Origin: Onishia taeanensis
GTDB lineage: Bacteria; Pseudomonadota; Gammaproteobacteria; Pseudomonadales; Halomonadaceae
Assembly (NCBI RefSeq): GCF_003268885.1
Contig: NZ_QLSX01000004.1
Coordinates: 1 to 64,000, forward strand
DNA: 64,000 nucleotides
Direction of reading: 5' to 3'
In this document: positions 28,172 through 37,623 of the stretch, in pieces
Numbering within the stretch: position 1 is the first letter of the stretch
Layout: every line of letters begins with the position of its first letter
Made by a program: the position numbers and the translations under genes
Notes under the pieces: model-generated
What the model saw: the letters and a program-made list of their open reading frames with translations, nothing else
Told to the model about the DNA's origin: nothing
The model's database searches: none

Positions 28172-29071
28172 TCAGTAGAACATCGCCTCCAGCGCCGCGC
28201 CGGGGTCGTCCACGCGCATAAAGGCCTCACCGACCAGAAAACCATGCACGCCACGCTCGCGCATCCGCGCCACATCCTCGCGGCCATGGATACCCGACTC
28301 GGTGATTACCGTCACGCCCTTAGGTATCCGTTCGAGCAGCTCGAAGGTAGTCTCGAGACGGGTCTCGAAGGTGTGCAGGTCGCGGTTGTTGATGCCGACC
28401 AGAGTCAGATCCAGCGCCAGCGCCCGCTCCAACTCCTTGGCATCGTGCACTTCCACCAGCACATCCATGCCCAGCGCCACGGCCTGGTCATGCAGCGCCT
28501 TCAGATGGGCGTCATCCAGAGCGGCAACGATCAGCAGGATGCAGTCGGCGCCGATGGCCCGGGCCTCGACGACCTGGTAGCCATGGGTGATGAAGTCCTT
28601 GCGGATCACCGGCAGCCCACAGGCATCCTGCGCTTCGATCAGGTAATCCTCGTGGCCCTGGAAGAAGTCGGCATCGGTGAGCACCGACAGGCAGGCTGCC
28701 CCACCACGCTCGTAGGCGCGGGCGATGTCGGCGGGGCGAAAGTCCTCACGCATGACGCCCTTCGAGGGCGAAGCTTTCTTGACCTCGGCGATCACCGCCG
28801 GATCACCGGCAGCGATGCGCGCTTCCAACGCGGCGACGAAGCCCCGCGGCGGCGCCTGGCGAGCGGCGAGATCGTGAAGTTCGTCCTCGCTGACCGCCTG
28901 GCGGCGCTCGGCGACTTCCTCGTCCTTGCGCGCCAGGATGCGGGCCAGAATAGTCGGCAGGCGATCTTTAGACGAACGGCCTTGAGACTGAGCGCCTTGA
29001 GACGAAGAGCCTGGAGAGTGGGTGCCTGGTGAGTGAGTGCCTTGAGAATGCGTATCTTGCGCTTGAGTCAT
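28172..29071 (-). CDS. trpC: Indole-3-glycerol phosphate synthase TrpC
   Basis: TrpC closes the indole ring in tryptophan synthesis. The 299-residue protein is a TIM barrel with the catalytic Lys segment [20 protein letters not shown], phosphate-binding [11 protein letters not shown] and late motif [15 protein letters not shown]. It is longer than usual (about 260-275) because of an N-terminal extension of five 5-residue Ser/Gln/Gly-rich repeats (residues 7-31) ahead of the true fold start near [11 protein letters not shown]. No other Met lies between, so the extension is translated. Last gene of trpGDC. Confidence 0.95.
28979..29053 (-). repeat. 15-bp coding minisatellite at the 5' end of trpC
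   Basis: Five tandem 15-bp units encode [20 protein letters not shown] and AQSQG (TrpC residues 7-31). The 15-bp period keeps the frame, so copy-number change would lengthen or shorten the N-terminal tail without inactivating TrpC. Confidence 0.75.
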
Positions 29072-29128: not shown

Positions 29129-30148
29129 TCAGACTGCAAAGACTCGGGTGAAATCGGCAAGCTCCTTGAGCTTCTCCGCGGGCAGCTTCGAGGCCTGAGA
29201 GTCCTGGGCCATCAGGACGCCTTCCTTGAGGGTATCGGCAACACCCGAGGCATACAGAGCGGCACCGGCATTCAGGGCGACGATATCCGCCGCCGGTCCC
29301 TCGCCAACCAGCGACTGCTTGACCAGCGCAAGGCTCTCTTCCGCGGTCGACACCTTGAGGGCGCTAAGCGACTGACGCTCGATGCCGAAGTCCTCGGGGG
29401 CGATCGTGTACTGGGTGATCTCGCCATCCTTGAGCTCGGCCACATGGGTCGGCGCCGCAAGCGAGATCTCGTCGAGCCCGTCTTCGGCGTGGACCACCAG
29501 CACGTGTTCGCTGCCCAGCCGCCTGAGCACCTCGGCCATCAGCGGCAGCAGCTTCGCCGAATAGACGCCCAGCAGCTGATTCGGCGCACTGGCCGGGTTG
29601 GTCAGCGGCCCCAGGATATTGAACAGGGTACGCACGCCCATCTCGCGGCGCGGCCCCACCGCATAGCGCATCGCGGTGTGGTGGTGGGGGGCAAACATGA
29701 AGCCGACCCCGACCTGGTCGATACAGCGCGCCACCTGATCGGCGGCCAGGTCGAGATTGATCCCGGCGACGCTGAACAGATCAGCACTGCCCGACGAGGA
29801 AGACACGCCGCGGTTGCCGTGCTTGGCGACATGGGCTCCCGCCGCCGCGACCACAAAGCTCGAGGCCGTCGAGATGTTGAACAGGTTGGCACCGTCACCG
29901 CCGGTGCCAACGATATCGACGACATTTTCGCCATGCACCGTTACCGGAATCATCAGCTCACGCATCACCTGGGCGGCGGCGCTGATCTCTTCGGCGGTCT
30001 CGCCTTTCACGGAAAGCCCCACCAGGAAACCGCCGATCTGAGCGTCGGTGGCTTCGCCGGTCATGATGGCATGCATCACGCTGTGGGTCTGTTCATAGCT
30101 CAGGCTCTGGCCGCGCATCACGGCGTCGATCGCCTCTCGCATCTGCAT
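29129..30148 (-). CDS. trpD: Anthranilate phosphoribosyltransferase TrpD
   Basis: TrpD joins anthranilate and PRPP to give phosphoribosyl anthranilate. The 339-residue protein shows the PRPP-site motif VDIVGTGGDGANLFNISTAS and the anthranilate tunnel region KHGNRGVSSSSGSADL. The ATG at 30148 has an AAGGAGAGACAAG Shine-Dalgarno and gives the family-like start MQMREAIDAVMRGQSLS. It lies 44 bases downstream of trpG and 57 bases before trpC. Confidence 0.97.
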   Translation of the reverse strand: MQMREAIDAVMRGQSLSYEQTHSVMHAIMTGEATDAQIGGFLVGLSVKGETAEEISAAAQVMRELMIPVTVHGENVVDIVGTGGDGANLFNISTASSFVVAAAGAHVAKHGNRGVSSSSGSADLFSVAGINLDLAADQVARCIDQVGVGFMFAPHHHTAMRYAVGPRREMGVRTLFNILGPLTNPASAPNQLLGVYSAKLLPLMAEVLRRLGSEHVLVVHAEDGLDEISLAAPTHVAELKDGEITQYTIAPEDFGIERQSLSALKVSTAEESLALVKQSLVGEGPAADIVALNAGAALYASGVADTLKEGVLMAQDSQASKLPAEKLKELADFTRVFAV

Positions 30149-30192
30149 CTTGTCTCTCCTTGCGATCCATGTCGTGGTATGGCGATCAACGT

Positions 30193-30892: not shown

Positions 30893-30920
30893 AAAAATGC
30901 CGCCCTGACGGCGGCATTTT
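30893..30920 (-). terminator. Attenuator terminator of trpGDC
   Basis: On the minus strand AAAATGCCGCC-GTCAG-GGCGGCATTTTTG forms an 8-bp GC-rich hairpin with a T-run, placed between the trp leader peptide (stop at 30950) and trpG. Alternative pairings are visible: GGCGGC at 30938-30943 can pair with the GCCGCC arm, and CTGACG at 30929-30934 with CGTCAG at 30905-30910. Either would break the terminator. This is the layout of an attenuator. Confidence 0.8.
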
Positions 30921-30949
30921 CTCCAAAACGTCAGCGCGCCGCCCCCTGT

Positions 30950-31000
30950 TTAGGACTGCCACCACTGCTGGTTCGGATGTGTGTGATCTGGTGTATTCAT
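30950..31000 (-). CDS. trpL: trp leader peptide (trpGDC attenuator)
   Basis: A 16-residue ORF reads MNTPDHTHPNQQWWQS with tandem Trp codons at 30959-30964, followed 30 bases later by a terminator hairpin and then trpG. Ribosome stalling at the two Trp codons under tryptophan starvation would favour the antiterminator pairing. The predicted promoter (31007-31036) places transcription start at or within a couple of bases of this ATG, and no Shine-Dalgarno precedes it, so the message may be leaderless. Attenuation of trpE and trpGDC is established in Pseudomonas putida; here the assignment rests on the sequence alone. Confidence 0.82.
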   Translation of the reverse strand: MNTPDHTHPNQQWWQS

Positions 31001-31006
31001 GAAGCA

Positions 31007-31036
31007 ATAGTGCTGGGCAGGCGTCGCCCCTGTCAA
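31007..31036 (-). promoter_or_regulatory. Predicted trpGDC promoter
   Basis: On the minus strand TTGACA (31031-31036) and CACTAT (31007-31012) are separated by 18 bases; shifting the -10 to GCACTA gives 17. The start site would fall near 31000, the first base of the leader peptide ATG. Confidence 0.6.
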
Positions 31037-31058: not shown

Positions 31059-33377
31059 TCACGAAAGGCACGGAGCCGGCTTGCCCTGCCGAACCAGGTC
31101 GGGAATCTCCTCGGCCGGGCGTGCGGCACTCAACAAGAACCCCTGCCCAAAATGGCAGCCGATATCGCCAAGCTGCTTATGCTGTGCCTCGGTTTCGATC
31201 CCTTCCGCCACCGTTTTCAACGACAGGTGCCGCCCAGGCTCTGTGATCGCGCTGACAATGCGCCCGCCAGCGCCCTCTTCTTCCAAGCGATCGATAAACA
31301 TCTTGTCGATCTTGAGGGTATCCAACGGCATCGACTGCAAGCGAGCCAATGATGAATATCCCTGGCCGAAGTCATCCAATGAAAGGCGGAATCCTGCCTC
31401 GCTTAACCAGCGCATCGCCTCAGACACTTCATTTGGCGCATGCATCAGGGTGTCCTCGGTCAGTTCCAGCGACCACCAGCCTGGATCCGTGCCTTCCCCC
31501 GTCACCATGTCGCGAATATGCATCGCCGCCTGTTTGCCCTGCAACTGGCTAACCGACAGGTTGACCCCCATCCAGATATCGACGCCATCTCGGCGCCAGG
31601 CGGCTATCTGCCGCGCAGCCGTCACCAGGACCCAGTCTCCAATGGCGTCGATCAACCCAAGCTCTTCGGCCAGCGGGATAAAGGTACCCGGTGAGACCAT
31701 CTGTCCGTCCGGCTTTTTCCACCGAATCAGCGCTTCGACCCCCACGATGTTTCCACCGTCGATCTCCCAGATCGGCTGGTAGTGGAGGAGGAACTGGTGG
31801 GCCTCGAGCGCATGATAGAGCTCAGCCTCCAGGGTCAAACGTTTCTGACGTTCACTTCCCAGATCATCGGAGTAGAACACCAGCGGCAACCCGGAAGACT
31901 TGGCCTGGTACATCGCCATGTCGGCCTGCTCGACCACGGTCTCGACCTCGGAACCAAAGTAGGGAAACAGACTGACGCCGATGCTCGCACCGAGGTGATG
32001 CCGGTAGCCCTGAATATCGAACGGCTGTTTCAGAGCTTCATGAATTCTGCCGGCCAAGGCCTCGGCGCCTCGGCAAAGACGCTCGATGCCGTCATCTTCT
32101 TCATGCGATGGCTGACGCGGATCATCGACCATGACGACGATGAACTCATCGCCTCCCTGTCGGCCCACCAGGTCACCCTGCCGAAGAGTATGCTGGATGC
32201 GCTGGGCCACATGCTTGAGCACTTCATCGCCCGCCGCATGGCCAAGCGCGTCATTGATCAGCTTGAAATCATTGAGATCGATGAACAGTACTGCCGCGAT
32301 GCGATCATGCCCATCGTCGGCCGCGACCCGTTTGAGGAGGTGGAGGAGAGAACGCCGATTCGGCAAGGAGGTCAGGGTGTCGTTGTAGGCGAGGCGCCGT
32401 ATTTCCTGACCCTGGCGTTCACGCTCACGTCGCATCCGCAGCTTGTCCAACCCGAAGGAGAGGTTGTCTGACAGGCGCTCGAGAAGCTCATTCTCCTCGT
32501 CTTCAAAGTCGCCCCAGTCCCGGGAGTACACGACCAGAATGCCACTCGGAGTTGACTGGGTTCGCAGCGGCAACAAGATGGCACTTCTCAACCCCCAGGC
32601 GTCAATCTGCGGCCACCAGGGCGCCATGCGATGATCCGACATCAAGTCGGGGACGACTTGAGTGTGACCGCTCGAGAGTGCCATACCAACGACAGTACTG
32701 CCTGGTGGGCTGTCCTCCCAGCGCACCTCGAGGTTGTCGGTGTAGCCTGTCGCCGGGCCCGACACCTCGGAAATGGTGATGGTCGAGGTCCCTTCTTGAG
32801 CGAACCCCACCCAAGCCAGCTCATACCCCTCGGATTGGGTGATCATCCGGCACACGGCGCTGACCAGACCGTCCTCATCCGATTCCCGCAGCATCACCTC
32901 GTTGCATGCATGCAGCGTCTTCAAGGCGCGACTCACCCCGGCGAGGGCCTGGCGAGTGAGGTCATGCTCTTGAGACTGATGGTGCGACAAGTCTCGCAGG
33001 CGCAGTAAATTTCGGATCCGGGCGCGAATTTCCGGACCTGTCGTCGGCAGGCGCAGCACGTCTTCCACGGCTTGCCCAAGCTCTTGCTTGAGCGCGCCGG
33101 GCGAGACGCGCTGCCCCGGTGCCAGCAAGAGAACCGGCAATACCACCGGGTGGGCATCGGCACGTAATTGGGCGACATGCTTGCGTTGATGCTGCAGTGT
33201 CGAGGGGTCGAGGATGAGAAGGTCCGCTGCGCCGCTGAATGGCCTTCCATGCTCGAGTCCGACGGACTCCAGATCTTCATCCCCGCCGAGAGTCTGGATC
33301 AGGAGATTACAATCCGCATTGGATTGAAGGGCGATCTCGACTCGCCAAGGCTGGCCTTGCAGTGCGCTATCCACCAT
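31059..33377 (-). CDS. REC-like/GAF/GGDEF/EAL c-di-GMP signalling protein
   Basis: A 772-residue cytosolic protein for making and/or breaking c-di-GMP. Domains in order: a receiver-like domain (about 10-130) with a possible phospho-acceptor Asp57 in LLILDPSTL but a degenerate Thr/Lys end (LLAPGQ, LRLP); a GAF domain (about 160-310); GGDEF with an intact GGDEF motif at residues 408-412; and EAL with EAL at 548-550. Catalytic EAL residues are present (NLSVSQL, ELTEDTLM, LDDFGQGYSS, KIDKMFID, AEGIETEAQ), so both activities are possible. Its start overlaps the KaiC-like gene by 11 bases, so the two form an operon. Confidence 0.9.
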   Translation of the reverse strand: MVDSALQGQPWRVEIALQSNADCNLLIQTLGGDEDLESVGLEHGRPFSGAADLLILDPSTLQHQRKHVAQLRADAHPVVLPVLLLAPGQRVSPGALKQELGQAVEDVLRLPTTGPEIRARIRNLLRLRDLSHHQSQEHDLTRQALAGVSRALKTLHACNEVMLRESDEDGLVSAVCRMITQSEGYELAWVGFAQEGTSTITISEVSGPATGYTDNLEVRWEDSPPGSTVVGMALSSGHTQVVPDLMSDHRMAPWWPQIDAWGLRSAILLPLRTQSTPSGILVVYSRDWGDFEDEENELLERLSDNLSFGLDKLRMRRERERQGQEIRRLAYNDTLTSLPNRRSLLHLLKRVAADDGHDRIAAVLFIDLNDFKLINDALGHAAGDEVLKHVAQRIQHTLRQGDLVGRQGGDEFIVVMVDDPRQPSHEEDDGIERLCRGAEALAGRIHEALKQPFDIQGYRHHLGASIGVSLFPYFGSEVETVVEQADMAMYQAKSSGLPLVFYSDDLGSERQKRLTLEAELYHALEAHQFLLHYQPIWEIDGGNIVGVEALIRWKKPDGQMVSPGTFIPLAEELGLIDAIGDWVLVTAARQIAAWRRDGVDIWMGVNLSVSQLQGKQAAMHIRDMVTGEGTDPGWWSLELTEDTLMHAPNEVSEAMRWLSEAGFRLSLDDFGQGYSSLARLQSMPLDTLKIDKMFIDRLEEEGAGGRIVSAITEPGRHLSLKTVAEGIETEAQHKQLGDIGCHFGQGFLLSAARPAEEIPDLVRQGKPAPCLS

Positions 33378-34839
33378 TATCCGCCGATCCTCGGAAAGCC
33401 CTGCCGGAGCCCATTTCAGGGTCGCCCCGCAGGATGCCGCGTAGGCCGGTCAAGGGCTTACCTACCTTCAGCCCATCCCAAGTGATATCGAATTCACGGA
33501 GCGTCTTCTCGAAGTCACCCGTGCGTTTCTTCAACATGCCGATGGTCTTGCGGATCTCGCCATCGAGTTCGATGTAGCGCAATATCAGCACAGCATCGGC
33601 CAGGTAGCTGATGCCGAGTTCGCTAACTCTCATTTCCCCGCCGGCAATCGAGCCAACCTCGTTGACGAGCAGCACGGTCACTCCCATATTGCCCAGGTAG
33701 CGGCAAAGAGCGTGGGCGTGGGAGACCACGTCTTCGCCGCGCACTGACTGCCGATACCCCGAGAGGCTATCGATCATGACCATCGTGGCCCCCCGCTCCT
33801 CTACTTCACGGCGGACACGCCAGGCGAATTCATCTGGTGTATAGCGCAGTGGCTCGACCGACTCCACCGCGAGTGAATCGTCATGCATCATCTCACCCAG
33901 CGGTATGCCGACATGCTCACAGCGATGCCGGATCGTCGCGAGGCTTTCCTCGAAGCTGAAGATGACCGAACGCTCTCCGCGGCTCGCCGCCTCACGCATG
34001 AACTGGACACCGAGCGATGTCTTGCCCACCCCAGTCGGGCCAGAGATGATCGTGACCGTGCCTCGCCCGATGCCACCTCCGGAGAGAGTATCCAGCTCGG
34101 CCACTCCAGAAGGAATCGACTCGGCAACGAAGGGTTGACCATGCTCCCCCGGCACCAGGCGCTCAAAGACACTCATGCCCTGATCGCTCAAGCGAACGGT
34201 ATGCCGGCCTTCGGCGAAGCCGGAACCGCGAAACTTCACGACGGACAGCGATCGACCCGACTCCGTGCGGTCAAGCTGCAGGATGCCATCGCCGAGGTAC
34301 TGCAGGTCTTCGTCGGCTTCCGAGCCGCGCTCCGAGGTAAACAGCAGGGTCGAGCCGGCATTCGTCAGGAACTCAAGCAGCGACATCACCTGCTTGCGGA
34401 ACTGAAAGGTATCGGGCACCAGGTGACGAAACTGGCTGAGCGCATCGATGAAGACGCGCGCCGGAGGCCCTTCCGGAAACGCCTCTTCGATACGCGAGCG
34501 GATGTCGGGTGGCTCCGCTTCCCAGGGTTCGAACAGGGTATAGGTCGATTGCCCACTGGCTTGCGCAGTGGGCGAAAGATCAATGGTGACTACCCCCTCG
34601 AGCGCCATGCCAATGCTCGCCGCATCATTGCGAATATTGCGGTCTGCCTCGCCGAGACTGACCAGTAATGCCCGCTCGCCTTCCGGCTTGGCGGCAAGAA
34701 AATGCAGGCCCAGCGTCGTCTTGCCCGTACCGGGGCCACCTGACACCAGGTATGACCGGCCAGGCAGGAAGCCTCCGTGAAGAATTTTCTCCAGTCCCGG
34801 AACATCTGTCGTGATGCGTGGCGACGGATTGCTTTTCAT
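33367..34839 (-). CDS. KaiC-like double RecA-fold ATPase
   Basis: A 490-residue protein with two KaiC/RadA-type ATPase domains in tandem. The first Walker A is GGPGTGKTT (residues 34-42), with SLGE where KaiC has its catalytic Glu pair. The second Walker A is GPTGVGKTS (about 267-275), followed by an intact FSFEES with the Glu pair at 297-298. Where cyanobacterial KaiC has Ser431/Thr432, this protein has Ser411-Tyr412 in LGISYLADAV, so at most one classical site remains (alignment by eye). The ATG at 34839 has a GGGAGAATC Shine-Dalgarno. No kaiA or kaiB is nearby. It probably regulates its partner c-di-GMP protein rather than a clock (inference). Confidence 0.88.
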   Translation of the reverse strand: MKSNPSPRITTDVPGLEKILHGGFLPGRSYLVSGGPGTGKTTLGLHFLAAKPEGERALLVSLGEADRNIRNDAASIGMALEGVVTIDLSPTAQASGQSTYTLFEPWEAEPPDIRSRIEEAFPEGPPARVFIDALSQFRHLVPDTFQFRKQVMSLLEFLTNAGSTLLFTSERGSEADEDLQYLGDGILQLDRTESGRSLSVVKFRGSGFAEGRHTVRLSDQGMSVFERLVPGEHGQPFVAESIPSGVAELDTLSGGGIGRGTVTIISGPTGVGKTSLGVQFMREAASRGERSVIFSFEESLATIRHRCEHVGIPLGEMMHDDSLAVESVEPLRYTPDEFAWRVRREVEERGATMVMIDSLSGYRQSVRGEDVVSHAHALCRYLGNMGVTVLLVNEVGSIAGGEMRVSELGISYLADAVLILRYIELDGEIRKTIGMLKKRTGDFEKTLREFDITWDGLKVGKPLTGLRGILRGDPEMGSGRAFRGSADNGG

Positions 34840-35157
34840 GATTCTCCCTAGCGTGATCTCTTCGCCTCGATAAAAGCTGCTCGACCGGCGGCACCTTGTA
34901 TCGCTCAGGCTGATACGACCCTGGAGGCCTTGGCGAAGCGATGTCAGCCAGGCAGCCGGACCTTCTCCGGTGAGAGCCCTAACCATACCCAAGCGGCTAG
35001 GGAAAGCAACTTGGCTAGCGTCACGCTCAACAAGATGCGCAACGACGGTCTTCGTTCTGCTTGGCCCCATGAACCAAAACCCCGCCACTGGCGGGGTTTG
35101 AAGGGCGAGCCAAAACGTGTCGATCGTCAATTAAGTGGTGAAGGGGTATGTCTGCCC
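34840..35157 (-). other. Leader region of the kaiC-like operon
   Basis: 318 bases between the trpE stop and the kaiC-like ATG. They hold the trpE terminator (35077-35099). At 34977-35014 is a set of crossing complementary segments: CCCTA/TAGGG and CCAAG/CTTGG interleave, which could fold as an H-type pseudoknot. No known riboswitch was matched. No promoter is clear. Confidence 0.35.
35077..35099 (-). terminator. Intrinsic terminator after trpE
   Basis: On the minus strand AAACCCCGCC-AGT-GGCGGGGTTTTGG is a compact GC hairpin with a T-run 58 bases after the trpE stop. It separates trpE from the kaiC-like operon. Confidence 0.85.
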
Positions 35158-36648
35158 TTACTCCAGGTTGTCCAGGCCGCGCTCGGCCATGGCCACGGCG
35201 CGGAACAGGGCACGCCCCTTGTTGAGAGTCTCCTGCCACTCGAGTTCGGGCACCGAGTCGGCAACGACCCCGGCACCCGCTTGAACGTGCAGCTGACCGT
35301 CCTTGATGACGGCGGTCCGGATGGCGATGGCGGTATCCATGTTGCCGTGCCAGGAGAGATAGCCCACGGCGCCGGAGTAGATGCCGCGCTTGACCGGCTC
35401 CAGCTCGTCGATGATTTCCATGGCACGGATTTTGGGGGCCCCTGACAGCGTGCCCGCCGGGAAGGTGGCGCGCAGCACGTCCATGGCCGTCAATCCCGGC
35501 TTCAGCTTGCCAGTGACGTTGGAAACGATATGCATGACGTGGGAATAGCGCTCCACCGCCATCTGATCGGTGACCTTGACGGTACCCGTTTCGCTGATGC
35601 GGCCGACGTCGTTGCGGCCCAGATCGATCAGCATCAGGTGCTCAGCAATCTCCTTGGGATCGGCCATCAGGTCGGCTTCCAGCGCCTGGTCCTCGGCCTC
35701 GGTAGCACCACGTACACGGGTGCCGGCGATCGGACGCACGGTGACCTCGCCTTCTTCCAGGCGCGTCAGGATCTCCGGCGACGAGCCCACCACATGATGA
35801 TCATCGAGGTTGAAGAAAAACATGTACGGCGAAGGGTTAAGGCTGCGCAGCGCTCGATACAGATCGAGCGGCGGCGCCTGATAGGGAATCGACATGCGCT
35901 GCGAGGGCACACATTGCATGACATCGCCGGCCAGCACGTATTCCTTGATCTTCTCGACCGCGGCCTTGAAGCCTTCTTCGGTGAAGCCGGAGTTGAAGTG
36001 GCCTTCCTCGACGGCTCGCCTGCCCGTGCCGGGACTCTGGGTGGTAATAGTGGCAGTGCGCAGCTGAATCTCGAGGCGCTCGAGGCGCTCACGCGCCATG
36101 GCATAGGCCCCCTCGACAGCCGGATCGGGATGCGTCCACAGAGTCAGGCGACCAGAGAGATTGTCGAACACCACCAGGTCATCACAGACCATCAGCAGAA
36201 TGTCCGGCACGCCCAGGGGATCGGGCTTGTCGACGCCGGCAAGGCGTGGCTCGGCATAGCGCACGGTATCATAGCCGAAGTAGCCGACCAGGCCACCGTC
36301 GAAGCGCGGCTGATCGTCGAGTCGTGGCACCTTGAAGCGCTGCTGGAACTGTTCGATCCAGTCCAGAGGATCCTCGACCCGGCTCGCGCCCAGTACCTCG
36401 TCATCCTTCAGGTGGCGCACTTCGTAACCGCGTACTTCGATACGTTCGCGGCTGGGCAGCCCGATGATCGAGTAGCGGCCCCACTTCTCTCCGCCCTGCA
36501 CCGACTCGAGCAGGAAGGTCCAGGGTGCATTGGCCAGCTTCAGGTAAGTGGAAAGCGGGGTATCGAGATCGGCGAGAACCTCGCGGGTTACCGGAATACG
36601 GTTATAGCCGGCATCGGCCAGCTCTTCGAAGTGTTCGGGGGTCATCAT
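35158..36648 (-). CDS. trpE: Anthranilate synthase component I (TrpE)
   Basis: TrpE converts chorismate to anthranilate with ammonia from TrpG. The 496-residue protein has the N-terminal feedback region with [19 protein letters not shown] (the LLES motif binds tryptophan in relatives). The C-terminal chorismate site shows [27 protein letters not shown] and [20 protein letters not shown]. The ATG at 36648 ([17 protein letters not shown]) follows AAGGA; a TTG at 36666 is also in frame. It is preceded by a short Trp-rich leader ORF (36801-36830) and is separated from trpGDC by the kaiC-like/GGDEF-EAL pair. Confidence 0.96.
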
Positions 36649-36678
36649 GCCCGGCAGTTCCTTCAAGAATGAATCACT

Positions 36679-36694
36679 TAAGCGGGGACGCTTA
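36679..36694 (-). promoter_or_regulatory. Small hairpin just upstream of trpE
   Basis: On the minus strand TAAGCG-TCCC-CGCTTA forms a 6-bp hairpin 15 bases before the trpE Shine-Dalgarno. It has no proper T-run, so it is not a clear intrinsic terminator. It may take part in leader-dependent control of trpE. Confidence 0.3.
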
Positions 36695-36800
36695 TGCTTA
36701 ACAGGGGGGCGTGGCTATCGCATTGCACTGAAGCATGCTTGCGCACGTCTCACGCACGGTACGGATCGGTATACGGGCGTGTTAACGCACTAGGCCGGCA

Positions 36801-36830
36801 TCACCATCGCCAACGCTTGACGTCACGCAT
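36801..36830 (-). CDS. Putative Trp-rich leader peptide upstream of trpE
   Basis: A 9-codon ORF reads MRDVKRWRW and stops at TGA, with Trp codons at positions 7 and 9. It lies 150 bases upstream of trpE and follows an AGGA element that is rather close to the ATG. The position and the two Trp codons, together with the second leader before trpG, argue for attenuation or a related stalling mechanism. No strong intrinsic terminator follows, unlike the trpG leader. Confidence 0.55.
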   Translation of the reverse strand: MRDVKRWRW

Positions 36831-36900
36831 CAGTCCTGCGGTGCCATGGCAACGTACATCTTGAGGGGAATGACGGGTGTCCGGCGTCATGAGGGAATCC

Positions 36901-36909
36901 GTTATAGCA
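36901..36909 (-). promoter_or_regulatory. Extended -10 promoter candidate for trpE
   Basis: TGCTATAAC on the minus strand is an extended -10 element; no good -35 box is present. Transcription would start near 36893, giving a leader of about 60 bases before the Trp-rich ORF. Confidence 0.35.
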
Positions 36910-36924
36910 GGATCTTATTGATTC

Positions 36925-36942
36925 GGCGGTTTTTATACCGCC
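36925..36942 (-). terminator. Possible terminator after gph
   Basis: GGCGGT and ACCGCC form a 6-bp hairpin 15 bases after the gph stop. The T-run lies in the loop rather than after the stem in this orientation, so efficiency is doubtful. Confidence 0.35.
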
Positions 36943-36957
36943 ATATTCAATTTCACA

Positions 36958-37623
36958 CTAAACGAGTTCGGAAAGCGATTCAACTACCGCATCGGGGCGA
37001 CTGGCGGTCACCGATTCGCCGTGATTATACCCGTAAGGCACGGCCAGCGTTCGAAAGCCCGCGCGCTTGCCTGCTTCGATGTCATGGCGCGAATCGCCGA
37101 CCATCAGGCAGACCTCTGGCGACACCCCGAAATGCGCCGCCGCGTGCAGCAAGGGGGCGGGATCGGGCTTCTTCTCGTCCAGAGAATCGCCGCCCAAACA
37201 CAGGCCGAAGCAGTCTGCCAGATCAAAGTGCTCAAGGATCGGGGCAATGAAGGCCTTGGGCTTGTTGGTAATCAGCGCCAGTGACAGGCCGCTGGCAATG
37301 AGGCCATCAATGGCCTCCCGCACACCGGGATACAGCTTAGTGAGCGCCACCGGCGAGGCATGGTAGTGCGCGAGAAAGCGTGCATGGCAGGCCTCTATCT
37401 CATCCTCATCGACCGGACGCTTCAGCACATCGCCAAGGGCTCGCTCGACCAGACGCCGGGAGCCGTTACCGACCCAGTCCCGCACCCGCACTTCACCGGC
37501 CGGGGGCATGCCCTGATCCTCCAGGGCGGCATCGAGCGCCGCGGCCAGATCGGGAACCGAATCGATCAAGGTACCATCGAGGTCAAAGGCCACCATACGC
37601 ATGTCGCGAACCAGGTCATGCAT
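36958..37623 (-). CDS. gph: Phosphoglycolate phosphatase (HAD family)
   Basis: Gph removes 2-phosphoglycolate, mainly from DNA repair, in the cytosol. The 221-residue HAD phosphatase has motif I DLDGTLIDS near residue 14, motif II LALITNKPK, the Lys of motif III in DEKKPDP and motif IV MVGDSRHDIEAG. The ATG at 37623 has an AGAAAGGA Shine-Dalgarno; a longer frame upstream is not family-like. Gene order gph-trpE is common in gammaproteobacteria, which supports the name over other HAD phosphatases. Confidence 0.9.
   Translation of the reverse strand: MHDLVRDMRMVAFDLDGTLIDSVPDLAAALDAALEDQGMPPAGEVRVRDWVGNGSRRLVERALGDVLKRPVDEDEIEACHARFLAHYHASPVALTKLYPGVREAIDGLIASGLSLALITNKPKAFIAPILEHFDLADCFGLCLGGDSLDEKKPDPAPLLHAAAHFGVSPEVCLMVGDSRHDIEAGKRAGFRTLAVPYGYNHGESVTASRPDAVVESLSELV

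Follow-up and report, generated by a model that had tools for sequence, protein, structure and literature searches.

The window analyzed here, a 64,000-nucleotide stretch of Onishia taeanensis DNA (contig NZ_QLSX01000004.1, positions 1 to 64,000), very probably carries a ribosome-mediated transcription attenuator for its trpGDC genes, with a leader peptide that is read from a leaderless mRNA. Judged by sequence comparison, this attenuator is ordinary in its RNA logic and unusual in its predicted start. The RNA would begin with the AUG of the leader open reading frame (ORF) and would be translated without a Shine-Dalgarno sequence. With ample charged tRNA-Trp, the ribosome would reach the stop codon and mask region 2, whereupon regions 3 and 4 would pair (the 3:4 helix) and transcription would stop at about position 30893. 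With scarce charged tRNA-Trp, the ribosome would stall at the tandem UGG codons. Regions 2 and 3 would then pair ahead of the synthesis of region 4, letting RNA polymerase continue into trpGDC. If no ribosome is present, the 1:2 and 3:4 helices would both form and transcription would stop.

The trpGDC leader and its occurrence in the family

The features of the locus are as follows.

31036-31031, minus strand: -35 element TTGACA, read directly from the sequence
31012-31007, minus strand: -10 element CACTAT, with an 18-nt spacer to the -35 element and 6 nt to the ATG
31000, minus strand: predicted transcription start, the A of the leader ATG, from its 6-nt distance to the -10 element
31000-30950, minus strand: leader peptide ORF MNTPDHTHPNQQWWQS, 16 codons, read directly and from the alignment; TAA stop at 30952-30950
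30964-30959, minus strand: tandem Trp codons, codons 13 and 14 of MNTPDHTHPNQQWWQS
30938-30964, minus strand: regions 1 and 2 (1:2 helix), from RNAalifold and covariation
30946-30938, minus strand: arm GGGGGCGGC, able to pair with the 5′ arm of the terminator
30910-30946, minus strand: regions 2 and 3, the antiterminator, GGCGGC with GCCGCC
30920-30893, minus strand: regions 3 and 4 (3:4 helix), making up the intrinsic terminator with its U run
30777-30193, minus strand: trpG (TIGR00566 trpG_papA, 283.9 bits, above cut-off)
29129-30157, minus strand: trpD (TIGR01245, 411.8 bits, above cut-off; start codon of our choice)
28172-29071, minus strand: trpC (NF001373, 390.6 bits, above cut-off)
31059-33377, minus strand: GGDEF/EAL gene (TIGR00254 GGDEF, above cut-off), its stop 22 nt from the -35 element
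35158-36648, minus strand: trpE (TIGR00564, 571.5 bits, above cut-off), upstream of trpG

The original prediction had named the TTGACA promoter, the 16-codon ORF with two Trp codons, the terminator, and trpG, and all four are present on the minus strand where it had placed them. Two genes lie between trpE and trpG in the window, one KaiC-like and the other the GGDEF/EAL gene, all four on the minus strand; full-length phosphodiesterase models score below cut-off on the latter. The reading frames of these two intervening genes (31059-34845, minus strand) overlap by 11 nt. The distance from trpE to trpG is also about 4.4 kb in genomes G003, G005, and G006 of the same genus, and the two genes are adjacent in G001, G002, and G004. 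Close named relatives of the TrpG protein occur in Billgrantia, Modicisalibacter, Salinicola, Vreelandella, and Halomonas, which places the source genome in the Halomonas family.

TrpG was detected in 256 of the 260 genomes of the family, and 149 trpG upstream regions, including that of the window, were compared. Places were ranked best first, so those nearest to the window are favored; one genome (G243) was excluded, its match lying 67 bases from the contig start, and 107 other genomes with TrpG, mostly less similar, fall outside this comparison. The same promoter-ATG layout with a Trp-containing ORF precedes trpG in 73 of the 149 regions, the window's included. In 47 regions trpE lies within 200 bp of trpG (ending 19-167 bp before it), and none of these carries a Trp-rich leader. 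Such a leader is found in 74 of the 102 regions that have no trpE within 200 bp. Tandem Trp codons (WW) are present in 67, so the codon pair singled out in the original prediction is conserved in 67 of the 149 family regions, and seven leaders have a single Trp codon. The latter were found by eye and chosen by a TTGACA-ATG distance of 35-36 nt. When all 149 regions were scanned systematically for short ORFs that start with ATG, contain Trp, and lie 34-38 nt from an exact TTGACA, the identical 73 loci were returned, none of them in the trpE-adjacent set. Neither adjacent trpE nor a leader was found in 28 regions, namely L092 (genus g14) and those of 27 genomes of genus g11. These 28 regions and the seven single-Trp leaders count against the proposed attenuator.

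Among the seven genomes of the window's genus, four carry the leader (loci L001, L084, L086, and L089) and three have trpE adjacent to trpG and no leader (L085, L087, and L088). Because both states exist within one genus, the effect of the attenuator on trp control can be compared between close relatives.

The predicted start of the leader RNA

Of the 67 WW leaders, 66 have an exact TTGACA that starts 35-37 nt before the A of an in-frame ATG (36 nt in 42, 37 nt in 17, and 35 nt in seven). When TTGACA-ATG distances of 20-60 nt were counted in all 149 regions, the counts peaked at 36 nt (47), with a smaller peak at 54 nt (14) that we attribute to internal in-frame ATGs. Across 66 distinct stretches spanning promoter and start codon, the gap between the best -10 element and the ATG is 6 nt (34 stretches) or 7 nt (32), a constancy that is partly built in, the ATGs having been chosen 34-38 nt from TTGACA and the spacers limited to 16-19 nt; this choice of ATGs lost one of the 67 WW leaders. 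The spacer between the -35 and -10 elements is 17 nt in 25 stretches, 18 nt in 40, and 19 nt in one, and the -10 element is CACTAT in 48.

Because the -10 element ends 6-7 nt before the ATG, and the usual distance from a -10 element to the start site places the A of this ATG at, or one base from, the RNA 5′ end, transcription is predicted to start at that A or one base away. The conserved promoter-ATG distance thus agrees with a start at about the first base of the ATG, as originally proposed, which remains a prediction from sequence. The CACTAT element departs from consensus, a point against the leaderless attenuator, and a consensus sigma-70 scan detected no promoter at the leader because CACTAT matches TATAAT at three of six positions. 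The pattern TTGACA-N16..18-NANNAT-N6..7-ATG has one match in the 3.74-Mb genome, located at the leader. Because two to three matches are expected in random sequence of this size, the single match says no more than that the layout is uncommon, and we dropped it as evidence beyond chance; what does rise above chance is the fold and the recurrence before trpG. Across the seven genomes of the window's genus, this pattern is found at the leader in all four that carry one and in three other places.

The original prediction had also noted the absence of a Shine-Dalgarno sequence, and indeed no match of at least 4 nt precedes the window's leader ATG. Within 20 nt upstream, 4-nt matches occur at nine of 66 leader ATGs versus 48 of the 60 trpG starts from these loci, and 5-nt matches at three of 66 versus nine of 60. 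Seven of the nine leader matches are located at -5 to -8, which counts against leaderless translation; with transcription starting at the A of the ATG, however, they would fall outside the transcript. We predict leaderless translation of the leader peptide, in the window as in its relatives. A pyrimidine at -1, seen in 64 of 66 leaders, was dropped as evidence because trpG starts too mostly have C there (83 of 94).

The alternative that survives best is an attenuator whose RNA carries a short 5′ UTR, longer than one or two bases, and likewise has no Shine-Dalgarno sequence. We regard this as unlikely. The 7-nt gap in nearly half of the stretches (32 of 66) speaks for it, as does the finding that five of the 24 Pseudomonas-type loci tested have a Trp-leader ATG 10-12 nt behind the best -10 element. 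However, a start at least 2 nt upstream of the ATG would sit at most 5 nt behind the -10 element, which is closer than usual. By the definition in the available text of one study, a 5′ UTR of up to 6 nt would still count as leaderless (PMC3293720).

It is very improbable that the leader is read only from RNA begun further upstream, with another start codon or a Shine-Dalgarno sequence. Read-through RNA is likely, given how close upstream genes end (22 nt from the -35 element in the window, and trpE within 60 nt in 18 of 73 loci), and the window has an in-frame TTG inside its -35 element. However, Shine-Dalgarno matches are rare at the leader ATGs, TTGACA holds a constant distance to the ATG, and the TTG was rejected as a start codon because it is not conserved, being missing in several loci (e.g., L089, L091, L096, L101, and L106).

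One locus, L238 of genome G119, which is the single WW leader outside the 66 with the promoter at the usual distance, lacks an ATG at the usual place, which is a further point against a leaderless leader peptide throughout the family. It has ATC at that position, and its first in-frame ATG lies 24 nt downstream. This natural variant could reveal whether leaderless initiation matters.

Alternative helices and probable attenuation

The terminator hairpin (30920-30893) has a folding energy of -18.0 kcal/mol (z -5.38), and the corresponding 28-nt stretches of the 73 loci range from -13.4 to -21.0 kcal/mol. The 108-nt leader, taken from its ATG as far as the U run, has a folding energy of -42.2 kcal/mol (z -3.56). 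Three terminator-like sites were found, versus 0.7 expected in shuffles; a weaker terminator-like site at 31158-31143 lies inside the upstream gene.

For comparative analysis, 45 of the 73 leaders were aligned (alignment A1), with ten leaders longer than 112 nt omitted and the rest being near-duplicates. The consensus fold of these 45 sequences (RNAalifold) contains the 1:2 helix and the terminator. In the 1:2 helix, 95.5% of cells pair, and five of the nine pairs are changed on both sides in some sequence. Covariation this high was seen in one of 500 shuffles, which ignore relatedness, and slid versions of the helix reach 33-66% pairing with at most three both-side-changed pairs. The window itself has one G-G mismatch in the consensus 1:2 helix (columns 45 and 60). 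For the 2:3 helix, 96.5% of cells pair over the 45 sequences with no compensatory change among them, a point against the attenuator that would nonetheless follow if region 3 has to match both of its partners. Both the 2:3 and 3:4 helices are nearly invariant, and clear covariation is confined to 1:2. The terminator hairpin had been thought to have two alternative pairing partners, and the mutually exclusive helices 1:2, 2:3, and 3:4 are indeed present. The attenuation proposed from them is supported by the conservation of the ORF with its Trp codons, of the antiterminator arm, and of helices 1:2 and 3:4, and by the compensatory changes in 1:2.

A simple fold model with an assumed ribosome footprint was applied to 68 distinct leaders. 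Without a ribosome, 67 of them form the terminator, and with a ribosome at the stop codon all 68 do. With the ribosome stalled on the first Trp codon and the RNA not yet extended into region 4, 57 form the antiterminator. At equilibrium, the stalled RNA favors 3:4 in 65 of the 68 leaders, and therefore the antiterminator must be a kinetic state.

That the hairpin is a plain terminator of the upstream gene and the ORF coincidental is scarcely credible: the hairpin alone is a strong terminator, and of nine matches fetched from outside the family, the eight that were read are similar terminators without Trp codons, but the ORF, the Trp codons, the 1:2 covariation, and the promoter are conserved, and the leader elements are missing in all 47 trpE-adjacent regions.

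Those matches came from a class-wide search of 369 genomes with a covariance model of the leader, which gave matches in 54 genomes. The window's leader scores 94.9 bits and the best match elsewhere 38.3 bits. We set the noise level at about 40 bits, given that the opposite strand of the window reaches 23.2; the source genome has two additional matches, at 30.1 and 28 bits. Ten matched loci were fetched (L265-L274), one being the window's own. Eight of the other nine were rejected as leaders, since they are terminators behind other sequence (in one case a tRNA) with no Trp leader, and L273 is the one not read at its match position. A Pseudomonas fulva locus with a WW ORF before trpG scores 22.6 bits, which is at noise level. 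Rfam gave no match at gathering in the window, and no trp family, Trp_leader (RF00513) included, matched the window's leader; a search up to E = 10 returned just two unrelated families, both below their cut-offs. Likewise, a search of a phage collection gave nothing relevant to the leader.

Known systems, transcript origin, and other trp elements

The trpL leader of Escherichia coli also encodes a WW peptide and forms 1:2, 2:3, and 3:4 helices, but it has a 5′ UTR with a Shine-Dalgarno sequence and precedes trpE. Trp attenuation is established in Pseudomonas putida for trpE and trpGDC. The Pseudomonas trpG leaders of the WRWRA type are, like the window's, gammaproteobacterial Trp-rich ORFs before trpG, but they differ in peptide and promoter. 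In the five loci noted above, an ATG of the Trp leader lies 10 nt (L019, L021, L023, and L036) or 12 nt (L026) behind the best-scoring -10 element, and the promoters are weak (8 of 14). Many of the 24 Pseudomonas loci tested had no Trp leader by this test, and because some outcomes (e.g., L024) conflict with another analysis of these loci, only these five loci were used.

Leaderless Trp leader peptides are known from more distant bacteria. In Sinorhizobium meliloti, the RNA of trpL (rnTrpL), which encodes a Trp leader peptide, starts at the ATG of the leader ORF, according to the available text of PMC7298713, and ribosome profiling, as given in the accessible part of PMC10117765, shows its translation as a leaderless ORF. 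However, this species is an alphaproteobacterium, its leader precedes trpE(G) whereas the window's precedes trpGDC, and rnTrpL has trans-acting roles. Streptomyces lividans has leaderless Trp leader peptides in trpL1 (before trpE) and trpL2 (before trpS), but it is an actinobacterium with monocistronic targets, and trpL2 lacks a U-rich terminator (PMC8079986, in the text available). Salmonella Typhimurium, like the window's source a gammaproteobacterium, has 16 transcripts that start at the A of AUG and 17 more with 1-6 nt before it, and the portion of PMC3293720 available to us mentions no leader peptide among these 33 leaderless or nearly leaderless mRNAs. Leaderless mRNAs also occur in Campylobacter jejuni, and this species encodes a Trp leader peptide, which was predicted in a study that sought a ribosome binding site (PMC3847290) and detected by ribosome profiling (PMC11955535), as far as the available text of both goes. 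Leader peptides are reported from C. glutamicum, and the available text of PMC3890552 does not state leaderlessness. Both Halomonas and Chromohalobacter are unnamed in the available text of PMC2965389.

Our literature search, conducted mostly outside subscription journals and partly on incomplete texts, found no description of a leaderless trp leader in a gammaproteobacterium, which fits the original suggestion that one would be unusual; a search on trpGDC with attenuation and a leader peptide also found no paper. Leaderless mRNAs are few in the studied gammaproteobacterium (the 33 of Salmonella in the available text of PMC3293720), and here the leaderless layout seems to be the usual way to start a regulatory peptide across many species. 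It would also be a natural system in which leaderless initiation has to keep pace with RNA polymerase.

Leaderlessness might possibly serve as a gate, such that only RNAs begun at the leader promoter can load the leader ribosome and escape termination, although we consider this tentative and somewhat doubtful. Within the fetched stretches, trpE is visible in 46 of the 73 leader loci, and in 18 of these it ends at most 60 nt from TTGACA; in L159, L171, L173, and L184 its stop codon lies inside TTGACA. None of the 18 stretches from trpE to TTGACA contains four consecutive T residues, and thus RNA reading through from upstream should reach the leader. In such RNA the leader AUG would be internal and without a Shine-Dalgarno sequence; ribosomes would then be expected not to load, and termination should follow. 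If the gate is real, read-through RNA from trpE or the GGDEF/EAL gene would always terminate, and one hairpin would act as a tryptophan sensor for its own promoter and as an unconditional terminator for upstream genes. Against this, ribosomes might reinitiate on the leader where trpE ends nearby, and a rough ORF test places an opposite-strand gene upstream of many other leader loci.

A second Trp leader ORF, MTPDTRHSPQDVRCHGTAGLMRDVKRWRW, precedes trpE in the window (36890-36801, minus strand). An ORF ending in WRW right before its stop codon is present in 27 of 30 trpE upstream regions, with VKRWRW in 16 of these. No intrinsic terminator was found at 36600-37000, around this ORF, and the folds there are not unusual. 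Because of these two observations, MTPDTRHSPQDVRCHGTAGLMRDVKRWRW may act through a different mechanism, for example Rho or ribosome arrest.

Finally, two copies of GRGTA spaced 12 nt apart (GAGTAAGCATCTGGGTA; 30845-30829, minus strand) are located between the terminator and trpG. Pairs of this motif 10-13 nt apart occur in 13 of the 73 leader loci (0.1 expected from base shuffles of the set) and in six of the 28 regions with neither adjacent trpE nor a Trp leader (0.1 expected, also from base shuffles). They occur in none of 42 distinct trpE-adjacent regions (0.0 expected). Among the 29 pairs lying 6-39 nt apart, the spacing is exactly 12 in 20.
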